Positions 1 through 55,524 of a stretch of DNA of 64,000 bases are shown here, one piece after another. Within the stretch, counting starts at the first letter, position 1; each line of letters opens with the position of its first letter. The stretch lies in NCBI RefSeq assembly GCF_029633865.1, contig NC_079222.1:30455311-30519310 (forward strand), given 5' to 3'. The DNA comes from Lampris incognitus (Eukaryota; Chordata; Actinopteri; Lampriformes; Lampridae). The translations under genes were made by a program, and so were the position numbers. The notes beneath the pieces were generated by a model, which worked only from the letters and a program-made list of their open reading frames with translations, was not told the origin of the DNA and made no database searches.

Positions 1-10
1 GCATTCTCCA
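1..10 (+). tRNA. tRNA-Ala, 3' end only (window edge)
   Basis: The last ten bases, gcattctcca, match the end of every full tRNA-Ala in the window, and the same downstream flank follows. The rest lies before the window. Confidence 0.85.
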
Positions 11-512
11 GAGAAGTTGGCTGGGACTTGGCTGTGTTACGTTTGCGCAGGCCTCTTAAGACTTAAACAATTATTGTCACTTTAACGGCAAGACTTCCCT
101 ACTATACAGGGCTGCCAATCCTGTTCAGCTTTGCCAGAATTGTGCTGTTTTTTAGATGGGTGTCACATAGGTATAACTTCAGCAAGCATAAATATTGTAT
201 TTCAACAACTGAAATGAACTTTGACGATAGGCTTTCAATATTTACAGAGATCAGCACTGTGAAGTGTAATTATGAGACTTATGTTACATATAAGGCTGAT
301 AATCCAGTTTATTTATCCAGTGCAATTTTACTCTAATTTTAAAGAGGTACAGCATGGTCACGCAGGAAGACGTAACGATACTGGACAAGCATCGTTATTG
401 TATTTCTAGAACACTGAAATGTTCAGCAATAACGGGTTCGGACATTCTGCTTGATCAGTAATCTGAAAATAAGCGTTCATGACACAAATCTACAGCGAAA
501 TATAAAACCATT

Positions 513-585
513 CTGTCTGTATGAGAGTTGAACTCACGAATTTCAGATTATGAGACTGACGCACTGCTTACTCCTTCAACAAACT
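513..585 (-). pseudogene. tRNA-Met (CAT) relic
   Basis: On the minus strand the anticodon arm tcagtctcataatctga and the T arm match elongator tRNA-Met as I know it, with CAT anticodon. The acceptor ends and D stem no longer pair well. A TTTT run lies about 7 bases past the 3' end (aaaa at about 507-510 on the plus strand), placed as a pol III terminator would be. Confidence 0.75.
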
Positions 586-954
586 AGGGAACGGTGCTCA
601 GGTACAGTCACACTACAAGTGTAAAACTGTCCCCTAATTATCCAATGTCTTCAAGTGCGGCCTTGTTAAAGCACCTCAAAGCCAGAAATATAAGTGTTGT
701 AAGCAATTGGAAATAACATGTGCTCATACCAAACCTCATATGAATTGTGACATAATCTAAGGGCTTCCTTTCAGCATATTTGAAAATGTGTTCATGTCGC
801 TTTGTTTCCACTGCTCTTCTATGTGCATCGTATTTGATTGGAGTTGCTTGAGTAGGAGTTCATCAGGACACTAGCAACTGTGAATACGTTTATAAAGACG
901 GTCTTTAGCAGCCTCACTTTAGTTAATGAAGACTCTTCCGAAGTTCGAAATAAA

Positions 955-1027
955 CGCCCGAACAGGGACTTGAACCCTGGACCCTCAGATTAAAAGTCTG
1001 ATGCTCTAACGTCTGAGCTACACAGGC
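955..1027 (-). tRNA. tRNA-Lys-TTT: tRNA-Lys (TTT), slightly degraded
   Basis: On the minus strand a 73-base cloverleaf: anticodon stem tcaga/tctga around cttttaa (anticodon TTT), variable loop gggtc, T arm cagggttcaagtccctg. This type 1 copy has acceptor gcctgtg/ttcgggc with a T-T mismatch, and GT instead of GG in the D loop (the conserved G19 is lost). Confidence 0.7.
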
Positions 1028-1732
1028 CCTTCTGGTAACTTTGAGTGCCCAAGAAATTGCTGATTGCTGAAATGTAGCTCAAGTCAAATTTATCTGTATA
1101 GCCCTATATTATAATTTAGACCCCGAGGGCTTTGAAGTCACAATTAATTTCTGTGCAATGTATGACGCCCCCTATCCTTTCACCCCCAATTCAGATGAGG
1201 AAAAACAAATCTACAATTTTTTTTAAAATTTTCATTTATTTTGAACTTTCAACTAATTCCAAATTGTAAACTTGTGCATACAAAATCTGGAATCCAAACA
1301 GCAGACCCCTATAAATCACATTACCCTCCCCCATCAAGTCACCCCCATAAATGTCAATTTTGTGGGTCAAAAAAATTAAAGCCAATTATAAAAAAACAAG
1401 AGCCCTTGCTCGGTCTGAATTGGATCAAGCCAACAGTTGTGAGAATGTAATCTAAACGTATGGATCATCATTATCCCTCAAGGGCAGATGACCAGATACA
1501 ATGAATCCATGTCGACTTATCTTTCCGGCAAGGCCATACGTCTTACGTTTTTCTTTGTCACCTAAGACTGACTGGGAAAGAGCCAAGTTAACCTTTGCCT
1601 CATTTAGTGAGTATACGATTTTAATGAATGCTCATAGCCAAGGGGATGAAAAACACCACTTTATTGTCCTTTTGCCGCGCAACTATGACGTGAAATAAAC
1701 CCTACTGCATGGGGTTCTTCTTTGACGTGGCA

Positions 1733-1805
1733 GGGGAATTAGCTCAAGTGGAAGAGCGCTCGCTTTGCATGCGAGAGGCAGCGGGATCGATGCCCGCATT
1801 CTCCA
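1733..1805 (+). tRNA. tRNA-Ala-TGC: tRNA-Ala (anticodon TGC)
   Basis: 73 bases that fold as a cloverleaf: acceptor ggggaat with attctcc, D arm gctc/gagc, anticodon stem ctcgc/gcgag around the loop tttgcat (anticodon TGC), T stem gcggg/cccgc, discriminator A. The acceptor has the G3-U70 wobble that alanyl-tRNA synthetase is known to require. Box A and box B promoter motifs are internal. Here the D loop reads GGAA where most copies have GGTA (U20 to A), shared with 11218-11290. The first run of four Ts downstream is about 110 bases away. Gene structure is clear; expression is unknown. Confidence 0.85.
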
Positions 1806-2091
1806 GAGGAGTTTGCTGTGTTACGTTTGTGCATGTCTCTTTAGACCTCAACGATTAATGTCACTTTAACTGCAGGATTTACCTACTATACAGGGCTGCC
1901 AATCCAGCTCAGCTTTGCCCGCATTTTGCTGTTTTGTAGATGGATGCCACATAGGTATATCTTAAGCAAGCATACTTATTGTATTTCTACAACACGGAAA
2001 TTAACTGTGACGACAGGCTTTCAGTATTTATGGAGATCAGTACCGTGAAGTGTAACAACGAGATGTATGTTCTGTATAAGGCTGTTAATCC

Positions 2092-3311
2092 TGACACCCT
2101 TCTCCACCAACTCCACCCTGCCTGCACTCTCTTCTTCACCTCTCTCGAGGCTCTGCTCAACCTGCACCCTACTCTCGCTACAGATGACAATGTCATCCCT
2201 AAACATCATCGTCCGCGGAGACTCCTGCGTGATCTTGTCCGTCAACGTGTCCATCACCATTGCAAACAAGAAAGGGCTCAGAGCCGATCCTTGATGTAAT
2301 CCCACCTCCACCTTGAACTCATCTGACATTCCAACCGCACACATCACCATTGTCACACTTCCCCCATACATATCCTGCAGCACTCCTACATACTTCTCTG
2401 CAACTCCCGACGTCCTCAAACAATGCCCCCCCTCCTCTCTAGGAACCCTGTCGTATGCTTTCTCTAAATCTACAAAGACACAATGTAACTCCTTCTGACC
2501 TTCTCTACTTTTCTCAATCAACATTCTCAAAGAAAACATCGCATCTGTGCTGCTCTTTCGCGGCATGAAACCATACTGCTGCTCGCTGATCGTCACCTCT
2601 CCTCTTAACCTAGCTTCCACTACTCTTCCTCATATCTTCATGCTGTGGTTGATCAACTTTAGTCCTCTGTAGTTGCTACAGTTCTGCACATTGCCCTTGT
2701 TCTTGAAAATCGGTACCAGTATACCCTTTTCTTCACTCCTCGGGTATCCTCTCGCTTTCCAAGATTGTGTTAAACAATCTAGTGTAAAAAGTGGGTGCAG
2801 AAGAGTGTCAAGAGTGATTTGCGACAGAAGGGTACCAGCAAGAGTTAAACAAAAGGTTTACAAGACGGTTGTGAGACAAGCTATGTTATATGATTTGGAG
2901 ACAGTGGCACTGACGAAAAGAGAGGAGGCAAAGCTAGAGGTGGCAGAGTTGAAGATGCTAAGATTTTCATTGGGAGTGACGAAGAAGGACAGGATTAGGG
3001 ATGATTATATTAGAGGGACTGCTCAAATTGGACGGGTTGGAGACAAAGCAAGAGAGGCAAGATTTACATGGATTGGACATGTGTGGAGGAGAGATACTGG
3101 ATATATTGGGAGAAAGATGCTGAATATGGAGCTGCCAAGGGAGAGGAAAAGATGAATGCCAAAGAGGAGGTTTATGGATGTGGTGAGGGAGGACACGCAG
3201 GTGGTTGGTGTGACAGAAGAACATGCAGAATACATGAAGAAATGGAAACGGATGATCCGCTGTGGCGACCCCTAACAGGAGCAGCCGAAGTTTGTAGTAC
3301 TAGTAGCAATT

Positions 3312-3342
<31 letters not shown>
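2092..3342 (+). mobile_element. RTE LINE copy with 5' inversion (type 2)
   Basis: The 3' part (about 2787-3342) reads on the plus strand and matches the C-terminal third of the young RTE. The 5' part (2092 to about 2787) is inverted and matches its RT domain. Both parts contain the element sequence around ggagaagagtgtcag (about 20 bp), so the junction overlaps. The copy is flanked by ataaggctg.taatcc on both sides (2076-2091 and 3343-3358) and ends in ten TAG units (3313-3342). This is the structure expected of twin priming. The inverted RT part also has an internal deletion of about 200 bp relative to the young copy. Minus-strand RT motifs (HCVFVDLEKAYDRVP, FLFAMVMD) are readable but the frame is not intact. 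Confidence 0.9.
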
Positions 3343-3565
3343 ATAAGGCTGATAATCCAGTTTATATATCCAGTGCAATTTTACTCTGATTGTAAAGAGG
3401 TACAGCATTGTCACGCAGGAAGATATAACGGTATTGGACAAGCATTGTTACTGTATCTCTAGAACACTGAAATAATCAGCAATAACGGGTTTGGACATTC
3501 TGCTTGATCAGTAAGCTGAAGATAAGAGTTCATGACACAAATCTACATCAAAATATGAAATCATT

Positions 3566-3638
3566 CTGGCTGTGTGAGGGTTGAACTCACGAACTTCAGA
3601 TTATGAGACTGACACACTGCCTACTGCTCTAACAAACT
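3566..3638 (-). pseudogene. tRNA-Met (CAT) relic
   Basis: Type 2 form: T stem gtgag/ctcac and anticodon stem tcagt/tctga around ctcataa. D stem and acceptor degraded. Confidence 0.75.
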
Positions 3639-4004
3639 TGGGTACAGTGCTCAGGTACAGTCACAGAACAAGTGTAAAACTGTCCTCTAATTATCCAGTT
3701 TCTCCAAGTGCGGTCTTGTTAAAGCACCTCAAAACCAGGAAAATTCTAGTGTTGTAAGCAAAAACATGTGCTCATTTCAGACCACGTAGCAAGTATGACT
3801 TAATGTAATGACTTGTGTTTCAGCATATTTCACAAGACGTTCTTGTCACTTTATTTCCACTGGTCTTCTGTGTGCACCACATTTGATTGGAGTTTCTTGA
3901 GCAGGAGTTCATCAGGACACTAACAACTGTGCATACGATTATAAAGAAACTCTTAAACAGCTGCACTGCAGCTTTTGAAGATTCTTCTGAAGTTTTGAAA
4001 CAAA

Positions 4005-4077
4005 CGCCTGAACAGGGACTTGAACCCTGGACCCTCAGATTAAAAGTCTGATGCTCTACCGTCTGAGCTACCCAGGC
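4005..4077 (-). tRNA. tRNA-Lys-TTT: tRNA-Lys (TTT)
   Basis: Best type of Lys copy: acceptor gcctggg/ttcaggc, D arm gctc/gagc with GG in the loop, anticodon TTT, perfect T stem. It closely resembles vertebrate tRNA-Lys(TTT) as I know it. No run of four Ts follows closely on the minus strand. Confidence 0.9.
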
Positions 4078-4583
4078 TCTTCCAGTAATCTTAAGTGCCC
4101 AAGAAATTGCGGATTGGTAAATCAGCGTATACAAAATCGGAAATCCAAACAAGAGACACCTATAAATGCCACTACCCTCCCCCATCAAGTCACCCCCATA
4201 AATGTCCATTTTGTGGGTCAAAAATGAAAGCCAGTTATTAAAAACCAGGAGTCCTCGCTCGGTGTGAATAGGAGCAAGCCAACAGTTGTGAGAAAGTAAT
4301 CTACCGTAGTGCTCATCATTATCCCTCTAGGGTTGGGGACCAAATACAATGAATCCATGTCGACTCATCTTTCTAGTAAGGGGACACGTCTTAGCTATGC
4401 TTTTGTTTGTCACCTAAGACTGACTGGGAAAGAGCCAAGCTAAGCTCTGCCTCATTTTGTGAGTATATGATTCTAAAGAATGCTCATAGCCAAGGGATGA
4501 AAATCACCACTTTATTGTCATTTGGCCACACAACAATGACGTGAAATAAACACTACTGAATGGGGTTCATGTTTGTTGTGGGA

Positions 4584-4656
4584 GGGGAATTAGCTCAAGT
4601 GGTAGAGCGCTCGCTTTGCATGCGAGAGGTAGCGGGATCGATGCCCGCATTCTCCA
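4584..4656 (+). tRNA. tRNA-Ala-TGC: tRNA-Ala (TGC)
   Basis: Full cloverleaf with D loop GGTA, variable loop AGGTA, G3-U70 and all stems paired. One of the best-preserved copies, at the start of a type 3 monomer. Confidence 0.92.
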
Positions 4657-4953
4657 GAGAAGTTGGTTGAGAGATAGTTGTATTATGTTTGTGCAGGCCT
4701 CTTAAGACCTGAACAATTATTGTCACTTCAACTACAGGACTTACCTACTATACAGGGTTGCCAATCCAGTTTAGCTTTGCCAGCATTTTGCTGTTTTGTA
4801 GATGGATGCCACATAGGTATATCTTAAGCAAGCATACTTATTGTATTTCTACATCACGGAAATGAACTGTGACGACAGGCTTTCAATATTTATGGAGATC
4901 AGTACTGTGAAGTATAACCACGAGATTTATTTTCCGTATAAGGCTGCCAATCC

Positions 4954-7156
4954 TGACACCATTCTCCACCCACTCCACCCTGCCTGCACTCTCTTCTTCA
5001 CCTCTCTTCTGCACTCCCCGCTACTTTAGACAGTTGACCCTATATGCCTTCGTCACCTCTACTCCTTGTATCCTCACCATTCCGCTGTCCTCCGTCTCAT
5101 TCGCGCATATGTATTTCGTCTTGCTCCTACTGACTTTCATCCCTCTTCTCTGCAGTACATCCCTCCACCTCTCCAGGCTCTCCTGAACATGCATCCTACT
5201 CTCACTACAGATCACAATGTCATCCGCAAATATCATGGTCCACGGAGACTCCTGCCTGATCTCATCCGTCAGCCTGTCCATCACATTGCAAACAAGTAAG
5301 GGCTCAGAGCCGATCCTTGATGTAATCCCACCTCCACCTTGAACCCATCTGTCATTCCAAACATACACCTCACCACTGTCACACTTCCCTCATACATATC
5401 CTGCACCACTCCTGCATACTTCTCTGCAACTTCCTCATACAATACCACACCTCCTCTCTCGGCACCCTGTCGTATGCTTTCTCTAAATCTTCAAAGACAC
5501 AATGTAACTCCTTCTGACCTTCTCTATACTTCTCAATCAACATTCTCAAAGCAAACATCGGATCTGTGGTGCTCCTTCGTGGCATGAAACCATACTGCTG
5601 ATCAACTTTAGACCTCTGTAGTTGCTACAGTTCTGCACATTGCCCTTGTTCTTGAAAATTGGTACCAGTATACTTCTTCTCCACTCCTCAGGTATTCTCT
5701 CGCTTTCCAAGATTGTGTTAAACAATCTAGTTAAAAAGTGGGTACAGAAGAGTGTCAGGAGTGATTTGCGACAGAAGTGTACCAGCAAGAGTTAAAGGGA
5801 AGGTTTACAAGACGGTTGTGAGACCAGCTATGTTATATGGTTTGGAGAAAGCTGCACTGACGAAAAGACAGGAGTCGGAGATGGAGGTGGCAAGAGTTGA
5901 AGATGCTAAGATTTTCATTGGGAGTGACGAAGAAGGACAGAATTAGGAATGATTATATTAGAGGGACTGCTCAAATTGGACGGTTTTGAGACAAAGCAAG
6001 AGAGGACAGATTGAGATGGTTTAGACGTGTGGAGGAGAGATGCTGGGTATATTGGGAGAAGGATGCTGAATATGGAGCTGCCAGGGAACAGGAAAAAAGG
6101 AAGGCCAAAGAGGAATTTTATGGATGTGGTGGGGGAAGACATGCCTCTGTCACACCAGCCGTGCAGTGAGTCTGATGGGGAAGACTGCGGAAGGGGGAAG
6201 ACTGAGAAGGATCTTGGTATGGGGCAACTGGATGAAATGAGTGGAAGTGATCAGAGTGAGCCAGAGGAGGAGAATAAATCTCAAAGATCCAACAATGAAG
6301 AGGAAAAGAAATCTCCCCAGGTAAAACACATACCTTCCGAGTCAATAAGGGTCAGGAGAAACCCCCGCCAAAGAGACTGACGTATGAATTAAAGACCCTG
6401 GACCCCCCACTCAGTTCAGCCGAAGATAGACATGGGATGGAGAATATGGAAGAGAGCTAAAGTAAAGATGAACAAGAGGGTGGCAGAGAGTGACACACAT
6501 GTACATACCCCATGACACACGCATCTCATCATGGCTGTGTTTTGAGTTATGGGCTACTTGTGAACTTAATCTGATAGCGGTGACGCCATCAAACATAGCG
6601 GGGGTAGATTTAAGGAAGTGAGTTACACTTATTCGCCGGCAGAGGATGATCTTGCATTGTTGGCACGTATTTTTTCCTTCTTGAGCGTTGCCGAATTCTG
6701 AGTCTTTTGTCCCTCCGTGGCTACTGTAGAGCCAGTTCCGTTTTGTGTTACAAGCTGCCTGTATGCTGCGAGTGGTGCTGTGTATGAGGAAGCTAAGAAA
6801 TGCAGAAAACCTGCCCTGCCTAAACCGGCATGAGGACTACTGTCTCCCGTCTGTACAACTGTATTCTCCCTCCGTCCGCCCTGGAGTCAGTCAGTATACA
6901 TTAAAAAATAACACGACGCAGACTCTGTTCAAGGGGTGTTCGGGCCGACAGCCAGAATAGGGTTACAGCTTTGGTATGGAGTATTGGTATCCTCCAGACT
7001 CGCTCACGGCTGGTGTAGCAGAGAAAGATGCAAAAGACAGGAAGTAATGGAAACGGATGATCCGCTGTGGCGACCCCTAACGGGAGCAGCCGAAGGTAGT
7101 AGTAGTAGTAGTAGAAGTAGAAGTAGAAGTAGTAGTAGTAGTAGTATTAGTAGTAG
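4954..7156 (+). mobile_element. RTE LINE copy with 5' inversion (type 3)
   Basis: Same insertion site, target duplication (4938-4953 and 7157-7172) and inversion junction (near 5735) as in type 2, so it is the same event. The inverted part keeps RT sequence that type 2 lost and instead lacks other segments near 5598. A piece of LTR element (about 6145-7007) lies in the 3' part. The tail is an imperfect TAG tract with AAG and TTAG interruptions (7096-7156). Confidence 0.88.
6145..7007 (+). mobile_element. LTR-element fossil piece inside the RTE
   Basis: About 860 bp lying within the RTE 3' region of type 3 monomers. The start resembles the tail of a Gypsy-type pol (an acidic stretch, then a basic RVRRNPRQR-like end); the rest looks like an untranslated and LTR region. 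It is a broken fragment with no capsid, protease or RT part. Family is uncertain, Gypsy-like at best. It is older than the amplification of the 9.45-kb unit and younger than the RTE insertion. Confidence 0.55.
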
Positions 7157-7378
7157 ATAAGGCTGATAATCCAGTTTATCTATCCAGTGCAATTTTACTC
7201 TGATTTTAAAAAGGTACAGCATTGTTACGCAGGAAGATGTAACGGTATTGGACAAGCATTGTTACTGTATCTCTAGAACACTGAAATGATCAGCAATAAC
7301 GGGTTTGGACATTCTGCTTGATCAGTAATCTGAAGATAAGAGTTCATGACACAATCTACATCGACATATAAAACCATT

Positions 7379-7450
7379 CTGGCTGTATGAGGGTTGAACT
7401 CACGAACTTCAGATTATGAGACGGACGAACTGCTACTGCTCCAACAAACT
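7379..7450 (-). pseudogene. tRNA-Met (CAT) relic
   Basis: Type 3 form, one base shorter, with an extra anticodon-stem change (tccgt). TTTT follows closely on the minus strand. Confidence 0.7.
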
Positions 7451-7823
7451 AGGGTAACAGCGCTCAGGGACAGTCACACAACAAGTGTAAAACTGTCCCC
7501 TAATTATCCAATGTCTCCAACTGCGGTCTTGTTAAAGCACCTCAAAACCAATAATTTTCTAAGTGTTGTAAGCAATAGGAAATAACATGTGCTCCTATCA
7601 GACCTCCTATGAATTGTGACATAATTTAAGGACTTCTTTTTCAGCATATTTGATAAGGCGTTCATGTGACTTTTTTCCACTGTTCTTCTATGTGCACCAC
7701 ATTTGATTGGAGTTGCTTGAGCAGGAGTTCTTCATGACGCTAGCAACTGTGTATGCGTTTATAAATAAAGTATTGAGGAGCTGCACTTTAGTTAATGAAG
7801 ACTCTTCTGAAGTTTGGAACAAA

Positions 7824-7896
7824 CGCCTGAACAGAGACTTGAACCCTGGACTCTCATATTAAAAATCTGATGCTTTACCGTCTGAGCTACCCAGGC
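7824..7896 (-). tRNA. tRNA-Lys-TTT: tRNA-Lys (TTT), degraded
   Basis: The type 3 form keeps anticodon TTT, but the anticodon stem (tcaga/tatga) has a mismatch, the D stem has ggtaaagc, and the T stem has a G-T wobble. Possibly a pseudogene. Confidence 0.6.
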
Positions 7897-8494
7897 CCTT
7901 CCAATAATCTTCAGTGCCCAAGAAATTGGTGATTGGTGAAGTGTATCTCAAGGTAAATGTATCTATATAGCCCTAAAATATAATTTGGTCCCAGAGGGCT
8001 TTGAAATCACAATTACTTTCTGTGCAATGTATGCCACCCCTATCCTTTGACCTTCGATTCAGATGAGGAAAAATGTAAATGGGAATTTATTTATTTGTTA
8101 TATTTCTTTTATTCTGAACTTTCAAAAATTTTCAAATTTTAAACTTGCGCATACAAAATCGGACATCTAAACAGGAGACACGTATAAATCCCACTAGTCA
8201 CTCCCGTAAATGTCAATCTTGTAGGTCAAAAAATGAAAGCCAGTTATTACAACCAAGAGTCCTTGCTCTTTCTGAATAGCAGCAAGCCAACAGTTGTGAG
8301 ACAGTACTCTACCGTAGAGCTCATCGTTATCCCTCAAGGGTAGGGGACCAGATACAATGAGTACATGTCGACTCATCTTTCTGGCAAGGTCACAAGTCTT
8401 CGCGATAATTTTCTTTGTCACCTAACATTGTTTAATTTGGTATCATTGGTGCTGACATAAAAAAATAAAATAAAAAAAAACGTTGAAGTTTCTA

Positions 8495-8742
8495 TCCGTT
8501 CATCCATTATCCGAACTGCTTATCCTGCGCTCAGGTCCGCGGGGATGCTGGAGCCTATCCCAGCAGTTATTGGGCGGCAGGGGGGGAGACACCCTAGACA
8601 GGCCGCCACGCCATCACAAAGCCGGCACACAGCACGGTGGCGCAGTGGTTAGAGCGGTTGCGTCACAGCAAGAAGGTCCTTGGTTTTAGCCCTGGGGTAA
8701 TCTAACCTTGAAGGTCACCCCGGGTCGTCCCCTGTGTGGAGT
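8495..8742 (-). mobile_element. tRNA-derived SINE-like insertion, head inverted
   Basis: A 248-bp insertion flanked by a 12-bp duplication, ttgaagtttcta (8483-8494 and 8743-8754); the site is empty at about 49697. The right half has pol III boxes on the plus strand (tggcgcagtggttag and ggtttTagccc-like), resembling a tRNA head. The left half (ccattatccgaactgctt, gctggagcctatcccagc) is, from memory, the reverse complement of the tail of the same common fish repeat. Head and tail thus face each other, as after a 5' inversion. Family name not assigned. Confidence 0.7.
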
Positions 8743-9426
8743 TTGAAGTTTCTACTGTGTGCGTTATGTGCCTCGCCCTCCTGTTTCTGCCTATGTCATG
8801 CCAGCACCCTAAGATTAGCTTCAGTGTCGGTAGCTCTGGCCTTAGATAAAAGCGAACATCAGTTGGCAATGCTAGGTTTAAAGTAGTCGGCAATAGATTC
8901 GCCTACTGCTAACATGTTTTGTTTAATGGTGGCTGAGAGGACAAGCAAAAACAGAGAAACACTGTGCACTGAGGATGAGAGACTGCAAATGAGTCCAAAC
9001 AGCTGTTGCAAGGGAGCACTCCTACCTTGCGGGACCAGGATAAACAAAGCTTCATTTGCTGATGTGGTTAAGCTATCCTTCGCACGGTCGCAAACCTAAT
9101 GGGCTGACTTTAAGGCCAAAGCTCTAAGATATCTGGAGTGTCAGTCAAATTTAACCTTATGGAGCGAAGTTCCATTTGCTGACAGATGGACAAGTCTCTG
9201 TAAGAGAGACCACAAATCTAAGAGGAGAGCACAGCTAGAACAAGACATTTCAACACAGCTAGATAAGTTAGCAGTAAACGTCAAAGAGCTAAGCTGACCT
9301 GTGCCTCATTTAGTGAGTATACGATTTCAATGAAGGCTCATAGCCGAGGGATGTTTAATTTCATTTCGCCATATAACTATGATGTGAAATAAACCCTACT
9401 CTATGGATTTCTTCATTGATGCGTGA

Positions 9427-9499
9427 GGGGAATTAGCTCAAGTGGTAGAGCGCTCGCTTTGCATGCGAGAAGTAGCGGGATCGATCCCCGCGCTCTCCA
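9427..9499 (+). tRNA. tRNA-Ala-TGC: tRNA-Ala (TGC), weakened acceptor
   Basis: Same body, but the 3' acceptor strand is gctctcc instead of attctcc (an A-C mismatch and a T-G wobble at the base of the stem) and the T loop ends in C. G3-U70 is kept. Confidence 0.8.
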
Positions 9500-10001
9500 G
9501 AGAAGTTGGCTGGGACTTGGCTGTGTTACGTTTGCGCAGGCCTCTTAAGACTTAAACAATTGTTGTCACTTTAACGGCAAGACTTCCCTACTATACAGGG
9601 CTGCCAATCCTGTTCAGCTTTGCCAGAATTGTGCTGTTTTTTAGATGGGTGTCACATAGGTATAACTTCAGCAAGCATAAATATTGTATTTCAACAACTG
9701 AAATGAACTTTGACGATAGGCTTTCAATATTTACAGAGATCAGCACTGTGAAGTGTAATTATGAGACTTATGTTACATATAAGGCTGATAATCCAGTTTA
9801 TTTATCCAGTGCAATTTTACTCTAATTTTAAAGAGGTACAGCATGGTCACGCAGGAAGACGTAACGATACTGGACAAGCATCGTTATTGTATTTCTAGAA
9901 CACTGAAATGTTCAGCAATAACGGGTTCGGACATTCTGCTTGATCAGTAATCTGAAAATAAGCGTTCATGACACAAATCTACAGCGAAATATAAAACCAT
10001 T

Positions 10002-10074
10002 CTGTCTGTATGAGAGTTGAACTCACGAATTTCAGATTATGAGACTGACGCACTGCTTACTCCTTCAACAAACT
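10002..10074 (-). pseudogene. tRNA-Met (CAT) relic
   Basis: Type 1 form, same as 513-585. Confidence 0.75.
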
Positions 10075-10443
10075 AGGGAACGGTGCTCAGGTACAGTCAC
10101 ACTACAAGTGTAAAACTGTCCCCTAATTATCCAATGTCTTCAAGTGCGGCCTTGTTAAAGCACCTCAAAGCCAGAAATATAAGTGTTGTAAGCAATTGGA
10201 AATAACATGTGCTCATACCAAACCTCATATGAATTGTGACATAATCTAAGGGCTTCCTTTCAGCATATTTGAAAATGTGTTCATGTCGCTTTGTTTCCAC
10301 TGCTCTTCTATGTGCATCGTATTTGATTGGAGTTGCTTGAGTAGGAGTTCATCAGGACACTAGCAACTGTGAATACGTTTATAAAGAAGGTCTTTAGCAG
10401 CCTCACTTTAGTTAATGAAGACTCTTCCGAAGTTCGAAATAAA

Positions 10444-10516
10444 CGCCTGAACAGGGACTTGAACCCTGGACCCTCAGATTAAAAGTCTGATGCTCTACCG
10501 TCTGAGCTACACAGGC
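10444..10516 (-). tRNA. tRNA-Lys-TTT: tRNA-Lys (TTT)
   Basis: Type 1 copy with the D loop GG intact. Acceptor gcctgtg/ttcaggc with one T-T mismatch. Confidence 0.78.
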
Positions 10517-11217: not shown

Positions 11218-11290
11218 GGGGAATTAGCTCAAGTGGAAGAGCGCTCGCTTTGCATGCGAGAGGCAGCGGGATCGATGCCCGCATTCTCCA
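11218..11290 (+). tRNA. tRNA-Ala-TGC: tRNA-Ala (TGC)
   Basis: Full cloverleaf with the same U20-to-A change in the D loop as the copy at 1733. Confidence 0.85.

Positions 11291-28792: not shown

Positions 28793-28823
<31 letters not shown>

Positions 28824-34458: not shown

Positions 34459-34492
<34 letters not shown>
33247..34492 (+). mobile_element. RTE LINE copy with 5' inversion (type 2)
   Basis: Same insertion, junction near 33942, target duplications at 33231-33246 and 34493-34508, eleven TAG units (34460-34492). Confidence 0.9.
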
Positions 34493-34715
34493 ATAAGGCT
34501 GATAATCCAGTTTATATATCCAGTGCAATTTTACTCTGATTGTAAAGAGGTACAGCATTGTCACGCAGGAAGATATAACGGTATTGGACAAGCATTGTTA
34601 CTGTATCTCTAGAACACTGAAATGATCAGCAATAACGGGTTTGGACATTCTGCTTGATCAGTAAGCTGAAGATAACAGTTCATGACACAAATCTACATCA
34701 AAATATGAAATCATT

Positions 34716-34788
34716 CTGGCTGTGTGAGGGTTGAACTCACGAACTTCAGATTATGAGACTGACACACTGCCTACTGCTCTAACAAACT
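34716..34788 (-). pseudogene. tRNA-Met (CAT) relic
   Basis: Type 2 form. Confidence 0.75.
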
Positions 34789-35154
34789 AGGGTACAGTGC
34801 TCAGGTACAGTCACAGAACAAGTGTAAAACTGTCCCCTAATTATCCAGTTTCTCCAAGTGCGGTCTTGTTAAAGCACCTCAAAACCAGGAAAATTCTAGT
34901 GTTGTAAGCAAAAACATGTGCTCATTTCAGACCACGTAGCAAGTATGACTTAATGTAATGACTTGTGTTTCAGCATATTTGACAAGACGTTCTTGTCACT
35001 TTATTTCCACTGGTCTTCTGTGTGCACCACATTTGATTGGAGTTTCTTGAGCCGGAGTTCATCAGGACACTAACAACTGTGCATACGATTATAAAGAAAC
35101 TCTTAAACAGCTGCACTGCAGCTTTTGAAGACTCTTCTGAAGTTTTGAAACAAA

Positions 35155-35227
35155 CGCCTGAACAAGGACTTGAACCCTAGAGCCTCAGATTAAAAGTCTG
35201 ATGCTCTACCGTCTGAGCTACCCAGGC
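35155..35227 (-). tRNA. tRNA-Lys-TTT: tRNA-Lys (TTT), weakened T stem
   Basis: Identical variant set to 25678-25750. Confidence 0.75.
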
Positions 35228-35733
35228 CCTTCCAGTAATCTTAAGTGCCCAAGAAATTGCGGATTGGTAAGTCAGCGTATACAAAATCGGAAATCCAAAC
35301 AAGAGACACCTATAAATGCCACTACCCTCCCCCATCAAGTCACCCCCATAAATGTCCATTTTGTGGGTCAAAAATGAAAGCCAGTTATTAAAAACCAGGA
35401 GTCCTCGCTCGGTGTGAATAGGAGCAAGCCAACAGTTGTGAGAAAGTAATCTACCGTAGAGCTCATCATTATCCCTCTAGGGTTGGGGACCAAATACAAT
35501 GAATCCATGTCGACTCATCTTTCTAGTAAGGGGACACGTCTTAGCTATGCTTTTGTTTGTCACCTAAGACTGACTGGGAAAGAGCCAAGCTAAGCTCTGC
35601 CTCATTTTGTGAGTATATGATTCTAAAGAATGCTCATAGCCAAGGGATGAAAATCACCACTTTATTGTCATTTCGCCACACAACAATGACGTGAAATAAA
35701 CACTACTGAATGGGGTTCATGTTTGTTGTGGGA

Positions 35734-35806
35734 GGGGAATTAGCTCAAGTGGTAGAGCGCTCGCTTTGCATGCGAGAGGTAGCGGGATCGATGCCCGCAT
35801 TCTCCA
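35734..35806 (+). tRNA. tRNA-Ala-TGC: tRNA-Ala (TGC)
   Basis: Full cloverleaf, like 4584-4656. Confidence 0.92.
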
Positions 35807-36103
35807 GAGAAGTTGGTTGAGAGATAGTTGTATTATGTTTGTGCAGGGCTCTTAAGACCTGAACAATTATTGTCACTTCAACTACAGGACTTACCTACTA
35901 TACAGGGTTGCCAATCCAGTTTAGCTTTGCCAGCATTTTGCTGTTTTGAAGATGGATGCCACATAGGTATAACTTAAGCAAGCATACTTATTGTAGTTCT
36001 ACAACACGGAAATTAACTGTGACGACAGGCTTTCAATATTTATGGAGATCAGTACTGTGAAGTATAACCACGAGATTTATTTTCCGTATAAGGCTGCCAA
36101 TCC

Positions 36104-38292
36104 TGACACCATTCTCCACCCACTCCACCCTGCCTGCACTCTCTTCTTCACCTCTCTTCTGCACTCCCCGTTACTTTGGACAGTTGACCCTATATGCCTT
36201 CGTCACCTCTACTCCTTCTATCCTCACCATTCCGCTGTCCTCCGTCTCATTCGCGCATATGTATTTCGTCTTGCTCCTACTGACTTTCATCTCTCTTCTC
36301 TGCAGTACATCCCTCCACCTCTCCAGGCTCTCCTGAACATGCATCCTACTCTCACTACAGATCACAATGTCATCCGCAAATATCATGGTCCACGGAGACT
36401 CCTGCCTGATCTCATCCGTCAGCCTGTCCATCACATTGCAAACAAGTAAGGGCTCAGAGCCGATCCTTGATGTAATCCCACCTCCACCTTGAACCCATCT
36501 GTCATTCCAAACATACACCTCACCACTGTCAAACTTCCCTCATACATATCCTGCACCACTCCTGCATACTTCTCTGCAACTTCCTCATACAATACCACAC
36601 CTCCTCTCTCGGCACCCTGTCGTATGCTTTCTCTAAATCTTCAAAGACACAATGTAACTCCTTCTGACCTTCTCTATACTTCTCAATCAACATTCTCAAA
36701 GCAAACATCGGATCTGTGGTGCTCCTCCGTGGCATGAAACCATACTGCTGATCAACTTTAGACCTCTGTAGTTGCTACAGTTCTGCACATTGCCCTTGTT
36801 CTTGAAAATTGGTACCAGTATACTTCTTCTCCACTCCTCAGGTATTCTCTCGCTTTCCAAGATTGTGTTAAACAATCTAGGTAAAAAGTGGGTACAGAAG
36901 AGTGTCAGGAGTGATTTGCGACAGAAGTGTACCAGCAAGAGTTAAAGGGAAGGTTTACAAGATGGTTGTGAGACCAGCTATGTTATATGGTTTGGAGAAA
37001 GCTGCACTGACGAAAAGACAGGAGTCGGAGATGGAGGTGGCAAGAGTTGAAGATGCTAAGATTTTCATTGGGAGTGACGAAGAAGGACAGAATTAGGAAT
37101 GATTATATTAGAGGGACTGCTCAAATTGGACGGTTTTGAGACAAAGCAAGAGAGGACAGATTGAGATGGTTTAGACATGTGTGGAGGAGAGATGCTGGGT
37201 ATATTGGGAGAAGGATGCTGAATATGGAGCTGCCAGGGAACAGGAAAAAAGGAAGGCCAAAGAGGAATTTTATGGATGTGGTGGGGGAAGACATGCCTCT
37301 GTCACACCAGCCGTGCAGTGAGTCTGATGGGGAAGACTGCGGAAGGGGGAAGACTGAGAAGGATCTTGGTATGGGGCAACTGGATGAAATGAGTGGAAGT
37401 GATCAGAGTGAGCCAGAGGAGGAGAATAAATCTCAAAGATCCAACAATGAAGAGGAAAAGAAATCTCCCCAGGTAAAACACATACCTTCCGAGTCAATAA
37501 GGGTCAGGAGAAACCCCCGCCAAAGAGACTGACGTATGAATTAAAGACCCTGGACCCCCCACTCAGTTCAGCCGAAGATAGACATGGGATAGAGAATATG
37601 GAAGAGAGCTAAAGTAAAGATGAACAAGAGGGTGGCAGAGAGTGACACACATGTACATACCCCATGACACACGCATCTCATCATGGCTGTGTTTTGAGTT
37701 ATGGGCTACTTGTGAACTTAATCTGATAGCGGTGACGCCATCAAACATAGCGGGGGTAGATGTAAGGAAGGGAGTTACACTTATTCGCCGGCAGAGGATG
37801 ATCTTGCATTGTTGGCACGTATTTTTTCCTTCTTGAGCGTTGCCGAATTCTGAGTCTTTTGTCCCTCCGTGGCTACTGTAGAGCCAGTTCCGTTTTGTGT
37901 TACAAGCTGCCTGTATGCTGCGAGTGGTGCTGTGTATGAGGAAGCTAAGAAATGCAGAAAACCTGCTCTGCCTAAACCGCCATGAGGACTACTGTCTCCC
38001 GTCTGTACAACTGTATTCTCCCTCCGTCCGCCCTGGAGTCAGTATACATTAAAAAATAACACGACGCAGACTCTGTTCAAGGGGTGTTCGGGCCGACAGC
38101 CAGAATAGGGTTACAGCTTTGGTATGGAGTATTGGTATCCTCCAGACTCGCTCACGGCTGGTGTAGCAGAGAAAGATGCAAAAGACAGGAAGTAATGGAA
38201 ACGGATGATCCGCTGTGGCGACCCCTAACGGGAGCAGCCGAAGGTAGTAGTAGTAGTAGTAAAAGTAGAAGTAGTAGTAGTATTAGTAGTAG
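36104..38292 (+). mobile_element. RTE LINE copy with 5' inversion (type 3)
   Basis: As 4954-7156, with junction near 36885, duplications at 36088-36103 and 38293-38308, TAG-rich tail at 38244-38292. Confidence 0.88.
37297..38155 (+). mobile_element. LTR-element fossil piece inside the RTE
   Basis: Same fragment as 6145-7007, duplicated with the array. Confidence 0.55.
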
Positions 38293-38514
38293 ATAAGGCT
38301 GATAATCCAGTTTATCTATCCAGTGCAATTTTACTCTGATTTTAAAAAGGTACAGCATTGTTACGCAGGAAGATGTAACGGTATTGGACAAGCATTGTTA
38401 CTGTATCTCTAGAACACTGAAATGATCAGCAATAACGGGTTTGGACATTCTGCTTGATCAGTAATCTGAAGATAAGAGTTCATGACACAATCTACATCGA
38501 CATATAAAACCATT

Positions 38515-38586
38515 CTGGCTGTTTGAGGGTTGAACTCACGAACTTCAGATTATGAGACGGACGAACTGCTACTGCTCCAACAAACT
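38515..38586 (-). pseudogene. tRNA-Met (CAT) relic
   Basis: Type 3 form, shares a variant with 29047. Confidence 0.7.
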
Positions 38587-38959
38587 AGGGTAACAGCGCT
38601 CAGGGACAGTCACAGAACAAGTGTAAAACTGTCCCCTAATTATCCAATGTCTCCAAGTGCGGTCTTGTTAAAGCACCTCAAAACCAATAATTTTCTAAGT
38701 GTTGTAAGCAATAGGAAATAACATGTGCTCCTATCAGACCTCCTATGAATTGTGACATAATTTAAGGACTTCTTTTTCAGCATATTTGATAAGGCGTTCA
38801 TGTGACTTTTTTCCACTGTTCTTCTATGTGCACCACATTTGATTGGAGTTGCTTGAGCAGGAGTTCTTCATGACGCTAGCAACTGTGTATGCGTTTATAA
38901 ATAAAGTATTGAGGAGCTGCACTTTAGTTAATGAAGACTCTTCTGAAGTTTGGAACAAA

Positions 38960-39032
38960 CGCCTGAACAGAGACTTGAACCCTGGACTCTCATATTAAAA
39001 ATCTGATGCTTTACCGTCTGAGCTACCCAGGC
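38960..39032 (-). tRNA. tRNA-Lys-TTT: tRNA-Lys (TTT), degraded
   Basis: Type 3 form, identical variant set to 7824-7896. Confidence 0.6.
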
Positions 39033-39630
39033 CCTTCCAATAATCTTCAGTGCCCAAGAAATTGGTGATTGGTGAAATGTATCTCAAGGTAAATGTATCT
39101 ATGTAGCCCTAAAATATAATTTGGTCCCAGAGGGCTTTGAAATCACAATTACTTTCTGTGCAATGTATGCCACCCCTATCCTTTGACCTTCGATTCAGAT
39201 GAGGAAAAATGTAAATGGGAATTTATTTATTTGTTATATTTCTTTTATTCTGAACTTTCAAAAATTTTCAAATTTTAAACTTGCGCATACAAAATCGGAC
39301 ATCTAAACAGGAGACACGTATAAATCCCACTAGTCACTCCCGTAAATGTCAATCTTGTAGGTCAAAAAATGAAAGCCAGTTATTACAACCAAGAGTCCTT
39401 GCTCTTTCTGAATAGCAGCAAGCCAACAGTTGTGAGACAGTACTCTACCGTAGAGCTCATCGTTATCCCTCAAGGGTAGGGGACCAGATACAATGAGTAC
39501 ATGTCGACTCATCTTTCTGGCAAGGTCACAAGTCTTCGCGATAATTTTCTTTGTCACCTAACATTGTTTAATTTGGTATCATTGGTGCTGACATAAAAAA
39601 ATAAAATAAAAAAAAACGTTGAAGTTTCTA

Positions 39631-39878
39631 TCCGTTCATCCATTATCCGAACTGCTTATCCTGCGCTCAGGGCCGCGGGGATGCTGGAGCCTATCCCAGC
39701 AGTTATTGGGCGGCAGGGGGGGAGACACCCTAGACAGGCCGCCACGCCATCACAAAGCCGGCACACAGCACGGTGGCGCAGTGGTTAGAGCGGTTGCGTC
39801 ACAGCAAGAAGGTCCTTGGTTTGAGCCCTGGGGTAATCTAACCTTGAAGGTCACCCCGGGTCGTCCCCTGTGTGGAGT
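39631..39878 (-). mobile_element. tRNA-derived SINE-like insertion
   Basis: Same insertion, target duplications at 39619-39630 and 39879-39890. Confidence 0.7.
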
Positions 39879-40562
39879 TTGAAGTTTCTACTGTGTGCGT
39901 TATGTGCCTCGCCCTCCTGTTTCTGCCTATGTCATGCCAGCACCCTAAGATTAGCTTCAGTGTCGGTAGCTCTGGCCTTAGATAAAAGCGAACATCAGTT
40001 GGCAATGCTAGGTTTAAAGTAGTCGGCAATAGATTCGCCTACTGCTAACATGTTTTGTTTAATGGTGGCTGAGAGGACAAGCAAAAACAGAGAAACACTG
40101 TGCACTGAGGATGAGAGACTGCAAATGAGTCCAAACAGCTGTTGCAAGGGAGCACTCCTACCTTGCGGGACCAGGATAAACAAAGCTTCATTTGCTGATG
40201 TGGTTAAGCTATCCTTCGCACGGTCGCAAACCTAATGGGCTGACTTTAAGGCCAAAGCTCTAAGATATCTGGAGTGTCAGTCAAATTTAACCTTATGGAA
40301 CGAAGTTCCATTTGCTGACAGATGGACAAGTCTCTGTAAGAGAGACCACCAATCTAAGAGGAGAGCACAGCTAGAACAAGACATTTCAACACAGCTAGAT
40401 AAGTTAGCAGTAAACGTCAAAGAGCTAAGCTGACCTGTGCCTCATTTAGTGAGTATACGATTTCAATGAAGGCTCATAGCCGAGGGATGTTTAATTTCAT
40501 TTCGCCATATAACTATGATGTGAAATAAACCCTACTCTATGGATTTCCTCGTCGATGCGTGA

Positions 40563-40635
40563 GGGGAATTAGCTCAAGTGGTAGAGCGCGCGCTTTGCAT
40601 GCGAGAAGTAGCGGGATCGATGCCCGCATTCTCCA
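40563..40635 (+). tRNA. tRNA-Ala-TGC: tRNA-Ala (TGC), anticodon-stem mismatch
   Basis: The anticodon stem 5' strand is cgcgc instead of ctcgc, leaving one mismatch against gcgag. The rest is intact, with variable loop AAGTA. Confidence 0.8.
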
Positions 40636-41138
40636 GAGAAGTTGGCTGAGACTTGGCTGTGTTACGTTTGCGCAGGCCTCTTAAGACTTAAACAATTGTT
40701 GTCACTTTAACGGCAAGACTTCCCTACTATACAGGGCTGCCAATCCTGTTCAGCTTTGCCAGAATTGTGCTGTTTTTTTAGATGGGTGTCACATAGGTAT
40801 AACTTCAGCAAGCATAAATATTGTATTTCAACAACTGAAATGAACTTTGACGATAGGCTTTCAATATTTACAGAGATCAGCACTGTGAAGTGTAATTATG
40901 AGACTTATGCTACATATAAGGCTGATAATCCAGTTTATTTATCCAGTGCAATTTTACTCTAATTTTAAAGAGGTACAGCATGGTCACGCAGGAAGACGTA
41001 ACGATACTGGACAAGCATCGTTATTGTATTTCTAGAACACTGAAATGTTCAGCAATAACGGGTTCGGACATTCTGCTTGATCAGTAATCTGAAAATAAGC
41101 GTTCATGACACAAATCTACAGCGAAATATAAAACCATT

Positions 41139-41211
41139 CTGTCTGTATGAGAGTTGAACTCACGAATTTCAGATTATGAGACTGACGCACTGCTTACTCC
41201 TTCAACAAACT
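41139..41211 (-). pseudogene. tRNA-Met (CAT) relic
   Basis: Type 1 form. Confidence 0.75.
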
Positions 41212-41580
41212 AGGGAACGGTGCTCAGGTACAGTCACACTACAAGTGTAAAACTGTCCCCTAATTATCCAATGTCTTCAAGTGCGGCCTTGTTAAAGCAC
41301 CTCAAAGCCAGAAATATAAGTGTTGTAAGCAATTGGAAATAACATGTGCTCATACGAAACCTCATATGAATTGTGACATAATCTAAGGGCTTCCTTTCAG
41401 CATATTTGAAAATGTGTTCATGTCGCTTTGTTTCCACTGCTCTTCTATGTGCATCGTATTTGATTGGAGTTGCTTGAGTAGGAGTTCATCAGGACACTAG
41501 CAACTGTGAATACGTTTATAAAGAAGGTCTTTAGCAGCCTCACTTTAGTTAATGGAGACTCTTCCGAAGTTCGAAATAAA

Positions 41581-41653
41581 CGCCTGAACAGGGACTTGAA
41601 CCCTGGACCCTCAGATTAAAAGTCTGATGCTCTAACGTCTGAGCTACACAGGC
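41581..41653 (-). tRNA. tRNA-Lys-TTT: tRNA-Lys (TTT), slightly degraded
   Basis: Type 1 form with the GT D loop, like 32109-32181. Confidence 0.7.
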
Positions 41654-42356
41654 CCTTCTGGTTATTTTAAGTGCCCAAGAAATTGCTGATTGCTGAAATG
41701 TAGCTCAAGTCAAATTTATCTGTATAGCCGTAAATTATAATTTAGACCCCGAGGGCTTTGAAGTCACAATTAATTTCTGTGCAATGTATGACGCCCCCTA
41801 TCCTTTCACCCCCAATTCAGATGAGGAAAAACAAATCTACAATTTTTTTTAAAATTTTCATTTATTTTGAACTTTCAACTAATTCCAAATTGTAAACTTG
41901 TGCATACAAAATCTGGAATCCAAACAGCAGACCGTTATAAATCACATTACCCTCCCCCATCAAGTCACCCCCATAAATGTCAATTTTGTGGGTCAAAAAA
42001 ATTAAAGCCAATTATAAAAAAACAAGAGCCCTTGCTCGGTCTGAATTGGATCAAGCCAACAGTTGTGAGAATGTAATCTAAACGTATGGATCATCATTAT
42101 CCCTCAAGGGTAGAGGACCAGATACAATGAATCCATGTCGAATTATCTTTCCGGCAAGGCCATACGTCTTACGTTTTTCTTTGTCACCTAAGACTGACTG
42201 GGAAAGAGCCAAGTTAACCTTTGCCTCATTTAGTGGTATACGATTTTAATGAATGCTCATAGCCAAGGGATGAAAAACACCACTTTATTGTCCTTTTGCC
42301 GCGCAACTATGACGTGAAATAAACCCTACTGCATGGGGTTCTTATTTGACGTGGCA

Positions 42357-42429
42357 GGGGAATTAGCTCAAGTGGTAGAGCGCTCGCTTTGCATGCGAGA
42401 GGCAGCGGGATCGATGCCCGCATTCTCCA
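42357..42429 (+). tRNA. tRNA-Ala-TGC: tRNA-Ala (TGC)
   Basis: Full cloverleaf with variable loop AGGCA. G3-U70 present. Confidence 0.92.
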
Positions 42430-42715
42430 GAGGAGTTGGCTGTGTTACGTTTGTGCAGGTCTCTTAAGACCTCAACGATTAATGTCACTTTAACTGCAGG
42501 ATTTACCTACTATACAGGGCTGCCAATCCAGCTCAGCTTTGCCCGCATTTTGCTGTTTTGTAGATGGATGCCACATAGGTATATCTTAAGCAAGCATACT
42601 TATTGTATTTCTACAACACGGAAATTAACTGTGACGACAGGCTTTCAGTATTTATGGAGATCAGTACCGTGAAGTGTAACAACGAGATGTATGTTCTGTA
42701 TAAGGCTGTTAATCC

Positions 42716-43820
42716 TGACACCCTTCTCCACCAACTCCACCCTGCCTGCACTCTCTTCTTCACCTCTCTCGAGGCTCTGCTCAACCTGCACCCTACTCTC
42801 GCTACAGATGACAATGTCATCCCTAAACATCATCGTCCGTGGAGACTCCTGCGTGATCTTGTCCGTCAACGTGTCCATCACCATTGCAAACAAGAAAGGG
42901 CTCAGAGCCGATCCTTGATGTAATCCCACCTCCACCTTGAACTCATCTGACATTCCAACCGCACACATCACCATTGTCACACTTCCCCCATACATATCCT
43001 GCAGCACTCCTACATACTTCTCTGCAACTCCCGACGTCCTCAAACAATGCCCCCCCCCTCCTCTCTAGGAACCCTGTCGTATGCTTTCTCTAAATCTACA
43101 AAGACACAATGTAACTCCTTCTGACCTTCTCTACTTTTCTCAATCAACATTCTCAAAGAAAACATCGCATCTGTGCTGCTCTTTCGCGGCGTGAAACCAT
43201 ACTGCTGCTCGCTGATCATCACCTCTCCTCTTAACCTAGCTTCCACTACTCTTCCTCATATCTTCATGCTGTGGTTGATCAACTTTAGTCCTCTGTAGTT
43301 GCTACAGTTCTGCACATTGCCCTTGTTCTTGAAAATCGGTACCAGTATACCCTTTTCTTCACTCCTCGGGTATCCTCTCGCTTTCCAAGATTGTGTTAAA
43401 CAATCTAGTGTAAAAAGTGGGTGCAGAAGAGTGTCAAGAGTGATTTGCGACAGAAGGGTACCAGCAAGAGTTAAACAAAAGGTTTACAAGACGGTTATGA
43501 GACAAGCTATGTTATATGATTTGGAGACAGTGGCACTGACGAAAAGAGAGGAGGCAGAGCTAGAGGTGGCAGAGTTGAAGATGCTAAGATTTTCATTGGG
43601 AGTGACGAAGAAGGACAGGATTAGGGATGCTTATATTAGAGGGACTGCTCAAATTGGACGGGTTGGAGACAAAGCAAGAGAGGCAAGATTTAGATGGATT
43701 GGACATGTGTGGAGGAGAGATACTGGATATATTGGGAGAAAGATGCTGAATATGGAGCTGCCAGGGGAGAGGAAAAGATGAATGCCAAAGAGGAGGTTTA
43801 TGGATGTGGTGAGGGAGGAC
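42716..43820 (+). mobile_element. RTE LINE copy with 5' inversion, 3' end lost
   Basis: Same insertion (left duplication 42700-42715, junction near 43413), but the last part of the LINE, its TAG tail, the right duplication and the Met relic are deleted. The join at about 43820 shares 'ac' between the two sides, as in end-joining. Confidence 0.88.
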
Positions 43821-44185
43821 AGTGCTCAGGTACAGTCACAGAACAAGTGTAAAACTGTCCCCTAATTATCCAGTTTCTCCAAGTGCGGTCTTCTTAAAGC
43901 ACCTCAAAACCAGGAAAATTGTAGTGTTGTAAGCAATAGGAAATAACATGTGCTCATATCAAACCACGTAGCAAGTATGACTTAATGTAATGACTTGTGT
44001 TTCAGCATATTTGACAAGACGTTCTTGTCACTTTGTTTCCACTGGTCTTCTGTGTGCACCACATTTGATTGGAGTTGCTTGAGCAGGAGTTCATCAGGAA
44101 ACTAACAACCGTGCATACGATTATAAAGAAACTCTTGAGCAGCTGTACTGCAGCTTTTGAAGACTCCTCTGAAGTTTGACACAAG

Positions 44186-44258
44186 CGCCGGAACAGTGAC
44201 TTGAACCCTGGACCCTTAGATTAAAAGTGGGATTATCTACCGTCTGAGCTACCCAGGC
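44186..44258 (-). pseudogene. tRNA-Lys relic
   Basis: Recognisable over its full length, but with several mismatches in the acceptor, anticodon (ccact/tctaa) and T stems. Anticodon TTT still present. Confidence 0.75.
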
Positions 44259-44761
44259 CCTTCCGGTAACCTTAAGTGCCCAAGAAATGCTGATTGGTAA
44301 GTTAGCGTATGCAAAATCGGAAATCCAAACAAGAGACACCTATAAATCCCACTACCCTCCCCCATCAAGTCACCCCCATAAATGTCAATTTTGTGGGTCA
44401 AAAATGAAAGCCAGTTATTAAAAACCAGGAGTCCTCGCTCGGTGTGAATAGGAGCAAGCCAACAGTTGTGGGAAAGTAATCTACCGTAGAGCTCATCATT
44501 ATCACTCTACGGTTGGGGACCATATGCAATGAATCCATGTCGACTCATCTTTCTAGTAAGGTGACACGTCTTAGCTATGCTTTTGTTTGCCAACTAAGAC
44601 TGACTGGGAAAGAGCTAAGCTAAGCTCTGCCTCATTTTGTGAGTATATGATTCTAAAGAATGCTCATAGCCAGAGAATGAAAATCACCACTTTATTGTCA
44701 TTTCGCCACAACTATGACGTGAAATAAAGACTACTGAATGGGGTTCTTCTTCGTTGCGTGA

Positions 44762-55521: not shown

Positions 55522-55524
<3 letters not shown>

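Follow-up and report, generated by a model that had tools for sequence, protein, structure and literature searches.

The window analysed here is a stretch of 64,000 nucleotides (nt) of the Lampris incognitus genome (GCF_029633865.1, contig NC_079222.1, here called C15, positions 30455311-30519310; the assembly comprises 1.48 Gb in 537 contigs). It lies within a tandem array of transfer RNA (tRNA) genes, or tDNA array, in which an alanine gene (+), a methionine relic (-) and a lysine gene (-) recur as a cassette. All coordinates are relative to the window, with negative values upstream, and 100 kb of flank was added on each side so that 264 kb was examined. The array spans ~135 kb, from -69.4 kb to +65.8 kb, and is located at ~30.4-30.5 Mb on the 57.0-Mb C15. 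BLAST with the three tRNA genes finds 40 Ala, 44 Lys and 35 Met copies longer than 60 nt over this span, the rightmost match being a Lys at 65709-65779. ARAGORN predicts 69 tRNA genes in the 264 kb, only three of which are Met, and 33 in the window (17 Ala on the forward strand and 16 Lys on the reverse). Each unit carries several tRNA genes and the units run head-to-tail, with an inverted arm on the left. The GC content of the window is 45%. No N run interrupts the array; the closest gap, of 200 N, is at -77.6 kb.

The center of the array has a higher-order structure. Starting from the Ala gene at 1733, successive Ala-to-Ala distances are 2851, 4843, 1791, 2810, 4824, 4599, 2806, 4838, 1793, 2846, 4829, 1794, 2405 and 5559 bp, and the monomers so delimited fall into three types (A, B and C). 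Phased as B-C-A, they form six complete units, U1 to U6, which occupy -19,991 to 42,356; beyond them, a decaying B'-C' reaches 50,320. The units measure 12.26, 9.46, 9.49, 12.23, 9.44 and 9.47 kb and are 98.1-99.3% identical in pairwise comparisons, with 67-178 differences (the U1-U4 figure includes a transposon insertion described below). When the Met-Lys stretch is compared among the 18 core monomers, identity averages 83.0, 82.6, 96.9, 83.0, 82.6 and 96.3% for lags 1 to 6, with ranges of 75.2-87.5% at lag 1 and 90.7-99.8% at lag 3. Given identities of ~83% at lags 1 and 2 versus ~97% at lag 3, chance is excluded for the three-monomer register. Monomers are thus unlike within a unit and near-identical at the fixed lag of three. 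Complete B and C copies are 96.6-99.8% identical within a type, and between types identity is 78-90% in aligned blocks.

A preliminary description of the window, made from its letters alone, had proposed this three-monomer structure, and alignment, monomer lag and shared insertions all uphold it. Self-comparison agrees, as self-BLAST of the window gives long diagonals at 9.43-9.49 kb and combinations thereof, at 97.6-98.7% identity over 9.5-19 kb. The same description gave a unit of 9.45 kb, present four times with a decaying fifth. Most units are indeed 9.44-9.49 kb, but one of the four in the window measures 12.2 kb, with a 2.8-kb insertion in its short monomer. The decay is confirmed, but the core extends upstream of the window to give six complete units, which makes the decaying one the seventh. 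BLAST places a Met relic between Ala and Lys in 13 of the 14 first intervals (Ala -62 to Ala 42357) and found none in the interval starting at Ala 42357. Homogeneity drops rightward, from the last A monomer (U6, 98.6-99.0%) to B' (94.9-97.2% to other B monomers), C' (about 90% to other C monomers over an aligned 3.1 kb) and the next monomer (86%). Such decay would be expected if exchange is rare at array ends.

Insertions of long interspersed nuclear elements (LINEs) mark individual monomers. The A monomer of U4, designated A*, is interrupted by a 2.8-kb LINE with a 22-bp target duplication at 19613 and 22421. Its frame encodes a reverse transcriptase domain, and an endonuclease match (Exo_endo_phos, in U4) lies just under the curated cut-off. 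U1 holds the same insertion in its own A* (-11569 to -8762), with the same 22-bp duplication at -11569 and -8761, and neither copy has its 919-amino acid (aa) frame interrupted. In the remaining core A monomers, the 22-bp target is present once. The two A* monomers are 99.3% identical, and U1 and U4 have 36 private sites in common besides the LINE insertion. A purine-rich region (20-22 kb) overlaps this LINE and corresponds to its coding strand. An older LINE insertion, at one site, is present in B and C monomers and absent in A, and C monomers have further insertions. The first part of the B relic matches the U4 LINE in inverted orientation and the last part in direct orientation, a join such as 5' inversion during insertion would generate.

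Table 1. Features of the C15 tRNA gene array, in window coordinates.
Feature	Position	Strand	Remarks
Array left edge			two intact Met genes and one Ala-AGC
Inverted, diverged arm	about -64 to -52 kb		~82% to right arm
Simple array, 3.31-kb monomers	about -38 to -26 kb
Higher-order core	-20 to +42 kb
End of U2: A monomer	1..1732	+	Ala begins -62; Met relic 513-585 (-), Lys 955-1027 (-)
U3, 9.49 kb	1733..11217	+	B 1733-4583, C 4584-9426, A 9427-11217
Older LINE relic in B monomers	2092..3342	.	ends in (GTA)n; flanked by ATAAGGCTG..AATCC at 2076 and 3343
tRNA-Met (CAT) relic of B monomer	3566..3638	-	31.7 bits, broken acceptor stem
tRNA-Ala (TGC), head of A monomer	9427..9499	+	one of 17 Ala in window
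tRNA-Lys (TTT) of A monomer	10444..10516	-	68.3 bits
U4, 12.23 kb, with LINE	11218..23450	+	B 11218-14027, C 14028-18851, A* 18852-23450
Non-LTR retrotransposon with first target copy	19613..22420	+	open 919-aa frame 19631-22387, RVT_1
U5, 9.44 kb	23451..32887	+	B 23451-26256, C 26257-31094, A 31095-32887
U6, 9.47 kb	32888..42356	+	B 32888-35733, C 35734-40562, A 40563-42356
Decaying seventh unit	42357..50320	+	B' 42357-44761, C' 44762-50320
Array right edge, diverged monomers and long terminal repeat (LTR) retrotransposon pieces	50321..64000	+	first monomer 86% to six core A

The tRNA genes of the array differ in state. An intact cloverleaf is found in the genes of the window (33, at 46.0-71.3 bits), the exceptions being the Met relics and the C-type Lys. 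Core A and B Lys genes in the window other than the one in Table 1 score 58.7-68.7 bits, save for a damaged A-type copy in U4 (46.5), and C-type Lys genes score 47.8-52.6. In every one of the six core units, the anticodon stem of the C-type Lys contains a single mispaired base; in U2, the first bases of the B-type Lys are missing. Among the Met relics of the window, only four B copies (31.7 bits) reach the Rfam cut-off. The Ala anticodon is TGC in 6/6 core A monomers, and CGC occurs in 1/6 B and 3/6 C. We compared gene bodies with their 75-bp flanks in non-redundant copies (20 of 40 Ala, 25 of 44 Lys and 16 of 35 Met). Bodies exceed flanks by 14.4 points for Ala (95% interval 10.3-18.3) and by 12.5 points for Lys (9.1-16.0), and the Met relic shows no excess (0.8 points, -3.4 to +4.9). 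Ala and Lys genes have been kept while the spacer diverges, and Met has not. Flank windows at about -40 of Ala and about -38 of Lys are among the most conserved, although the top Lys window is downstream, at +128. Conserved stretches precede Ala (about -50 to -25, including TGACGTGAAATAAAC) and Lys (about -39 to -12, including CAATTTCTTGGGCACT), and it is possible that they are RNA polymerase III (Pol III) upstream elements. Upstream stretches of Ala, Lys, Thr and Cys genes resemble one another within each family, and inspection by eye showed no promoter motif common to all array tRNA genes.

Other sequence elements occur towards the edges. The decaying C' monomer contains a 27-bp minisatellite of about 10 copies (46878-47160). 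LTR-retrotransposon pieces at 52820-62110, within the right edge of the array, encode reverse transcriptase, RNase H and integrase domains in separate frames. In the right flank there are two N runs, at 100126-102625 and 105126-107625, each of exactly 2500 bases.

Related arrays occur elsewhere in the genome. The tRNA family search scored the best 63 of 158,055 candidates, and so is not a genome-wide count; the DNA searches scored the best 40 of 186 candidates on C12 and, in another search, the best 40 of 92. From ~17.40 Mb, C9 carries the Ala/Met/Lys cassette in the same gene order, with Ala-AGC. Over 17.485-17.505 Mb (20 kb), the cassette retains an intact Met and repeats with a simple period of ~2.59 kb, copies being 99.1-99.5% alike. 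A 41-base Ala-type stretch has 73 matches in the genome with ≤ 3 mismatches, of which 32 are on C15, 28 on C9 (17.40-17.70 Mb) and 13 on C12 (17.86-18.02 Mb). The anticodon is TGC in 18 of the 73, all in C15. A 61-base Lys-type stretch occurs 54 times in the genome, and 53 of these occurrences fall within the arrays on C9 and C15.

An independent tRNA-Thr array at C12:39.64-39.76 Mb (L048, L049) also has a three-monomer unit, of ~4.02 kb. In the 20 kb examined, its monomers are 74-85% alike and nearly equal in length (1.32-1.36 kb). Neighboring units are 99.0-99.6% alike, and units ~40 kb apart ~97%. Among the best 40 of the 186 C12 candidates, at least 19 places match at 93-100% (one partial) and at least 22 at 75-83%, and eleven successive high copies are spaced 3.99-4.02 kb apart. 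Different Thr anticodons stand side by side, as CGT-TGT-AGT at one place (the AGT of one unit being truncated) and CGT-CGT-AGT at another. The three-monomer architecture therefore recurs in this genome, in Ala-Met-Lys on C15 and in unrelated Thr on C12. We considered a tRNA-Cys cluster (L050, C2:37.174-37.184 Mb) as a third higher-order array and rejected it; over 10 kb it has irregular 71-86% repeats and no high-identity period. The preliminary view that the structure is built on transposon scars holds for C15, where LINE insertions mark the monomers, but large scars are seemingly not needed, because the C12 Thr monomers are of nearly equal length over the 20 kb examined.

How did the C15 core arise? 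We consider it probable, at about 80%, that this is a tandem tDNA array that grew and was homogenized by unequal exchange in a three-monomer register. The ancestral unit would have been one Ala(+)/Met(-)/Lys(-) cassette, of the kind still found with an intact Met on C9 and at the left edge of the array. Monomers may then have diverged by LINE insertion in a B/C ancestor, point changes and loss of Met, after which unequal exchange would have come to act on blocks of three unlike monomers. Recurrent rounds of unequal crossing-over, or of conversion, in this register could have produced the at least six homogenized B-C-A units, and the right end would have escaped homogenization and decayed. The Ala and Lys genes would have been useful for a large part of the array's existence. 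In favor of this account are the lag pattern and the identities within and between monomer types, the LINE insertion and private sites common to U1 and U4, the graded decay at the right edge, the conservation of Ala and Lys bodies but not of Met, the C9 array with its intact Met, the three-monomer register of C12 and the confinement of TGC in this Ala type to C15. By analogy with zebrafish, we guess that the copies are most likely largely silenced and may be used at some stage, such as in oocytes.

Several points weigh against this account. We infer exchange from the sequence of a single assembly, and unit similarity does not follow adjacency (U2-U5 99.29% vs U1-U2 98.48%), which implies a history other than simple slippage; in the tree, U1 and U4 separate from the other four units with full bootstrap support, and those four are not ordered among themselves. 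In the comparison of bodies with flanks, copies were chosen by BLAST to the gene, which favors the body, although the Met relic, chosen alike, shows no excess. The Met relic is in turn an imperfectly matched control: similarity among its flanks is 0.85-0.87, against 0.75-0.77 for Ala and Lys, which may reflect a failure to detect the more diverged Met relics. Full expression is argued against by the terminators, as the canonical Pol III signal, a run of four T (T4), is nearly absent from the array: it occurs ≤ 25 nt behind 1 of 40 Ala genes and 5 of 44 Lys genes; 34 of the 44 Lys trailers start with a TTTNTT-like or T4 stretch. In the arrays on C9 and C12, T4 within 25 nt follows 0/6 and 0/7 genes examined (the latter in L048), compared with 8 of 16 other tRNA loci of the genome. 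These mixed controls are high-scoring rows of the tRNA family search, with L049, L050 and L029 outside the count; L046 (C2) and, by upstream sequence, L037 resemble array copies, and without both the proportion is 8/14. L047 belongs to a cluster on C13, and two close pairs are present, L034/L035 and L039/L040. Finally, CpG-decay changes occur at 4.2 times the frequency of other transitions in C15, as expected if the array is methylated. The ratio is 10.8-fold in C12 and 6.4-fold in C9; these ratios cover the arrays alone.

Expression of the Ala and Lys genes of the array is putative. The structure is compatible with a selfish or neutral macrosatellite that spreads by recombination with its tRNA genes as silent passengers, which we regard as a serious contender at somewhat less than even odds. 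The near absence of T4 terminators, the CpG-decay excess, the loss of Met and the anticodon-stem mispair in every core C-type Lys would all fit. However, a silent satellite does not readily account for Ala and Lys bodies conserved above flanks that have diverged by ~25%, nor for the highly conserved windows at about -40 (Ala) and -38 (Lys), even with the top Lys window at +128. The array may instead be of an oocyte type, silent in the soma but transcribed during oogenesis, as maternal 5S and rRNA arrays are, a tentative suggestion that we hold to be possible. Ala-TGC genes elsewhere have T4 at 6 and 2 nt (L038 and L039; a third, L040, only at 174 nt), so another source may be available. The large tRNA clusters of zebrafish chromosomes 4, 8 and 3 are described as near-completely CpG-methylated in embryos (PMC11574265), which favors silent passengers and points away from an oocyte role.

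The structure itself could be questioned on the grounds that haplotype copies or a wrongly repeated contig mimic a higher-order look. The differences among units, 0.7-1.9%, fall within the range between haplotypes of some fish. Nonetheless, the 135 kb is gap-free, the units differ in size, insertions and indels, and their 67-178 pairwise substitutions mean that they are not copies of one contig; a second family, the C12 Thr array with its 11 successive copies at 3.99-4.02 kb, is organized in the same way. With no gaps in the array, private variants and this second family, we judge an assembly artefact very improbable. There is also a hint, partly supported, of a third level, in which a 31.2-kb block of three units (one with the LINE and two without) was duplicated whole. 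LINE-bearing units occupy positions 1 and 4 of six, and for 5/6 units the nearest neighbor by identity is three units away (U3-U6 98.93% vs U3-U2 98.91%). Yet the tree backs only U1 and U4 against the rest, and in 2000 block bootstraps of the alignment without LINE columns, the number of agreeing units was six in 6, five in 442, four in 869, three in 634 and two in 49. We consider duplication of the block doubtful.

Three-monomer higher-order repeats may be a recurrent mode of growth for the tRNA arrays of this genome, arising independently on C15 and C12, in which unit exchange multiplies isoacceptor cassettes and preserves variety that monomer-level exchange would erase; we think this reading rather unlikely. 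Because exchange would homogenize whole units and not single monomers, a unit may amplify more than one anticodon for the same amino acid, such as CGT, TGT and AGT on C12 or TGC and CGC on C15. A putative C-to-T change at an anticodon CpG would create new wobble bases and leave the amino acid unchanged. Higher-order repeats have been studied mostly in centromeres, whose monomers carry no gene that marks function. The monomers here carry genes of known structure, with the dead Met as an internal control beside conserved Ala and Lys. Two independent arrays and the simple C9 sister make the formation and size of higher-order units testable by sequence, along with the question of selection versus exchange alone as the setter of unit size, and bear on the reasons why tRNA genes number in the thousands in some fish. 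The occurrence of the pattern in two tRNA families gives a hint of how such families expand while their members remain similar.

The likeness to alpha satellite drawn in the preliminary description is one of organization: alpha satellite also combines diverged monomers, near-identical multi-monomer units and decaying edges, as does the C15 core. However, its 171-bp monomers contain no gene, and it is centromeric and extends up to megabases, whereas nothing here points to a centromere; Tandem Repeats Finder (periods up to 2000) listed no array > 833 bp over the 264 kb. To our knowledge, the tandem tRNA gene units of the Xenopus laevis 3.18-kb tDNA repeat and of Entamoeba are simple. The structure had also been called unusual for fish. 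No report of tRNA higher-order repeats appeared among the top-ranked titles and abstract openings of a mostly open-access literature, but this genome alone has at least two cases.

Tandem tDNA arrays are already known in human, Arabidopsis, teleosts and Entamoeba (for the latter, PMC2888827, PMC4041453). The human 1q23.3 variable number tandem repeat (VNTR) is likewise a large multi-tRNA repeat, with 7.3-kb tandem units of several different tRNA genes, and its spacer is not conserved to mouse, whereas its tRNA genes are. Unlike the C15 array, it is GC-rich and CTCF-bound and is described as having one unit type, and the sections of that report on which we draw mention no unit of unlike monomers (PMC4041453). 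Teleost tRNA clusters (zebrafish, stickleback) also comprise fifty and more genes, in zebrafish mostly as heterogeneous pairs. Those pairs are nearly all parallel, whereas here Ala is opposed to Met and Lys, and the portions of these accounts considered contain no mention of higher-order structure (PMC2888827, PMC11417395, PMC11574265). The Arabidopsis SYY cluster shares with C15 tandem cassettes (Ser-Tyr-Tyr) and a core with variable, pseudogene-richer edges, and it is silenced in most tissues; it is a plant system, for which core expansion is described and, in the text drawn on, no unit of three unlike monomers (PMC12308677). The human chromosome 1 NBPF 3mer repeats are protein-coding and belong to primates, but like the Lampris core they are gene-bearing, with ~1.6-kb monomers of three types arranged in a three-monomer unit (PMC11675761).

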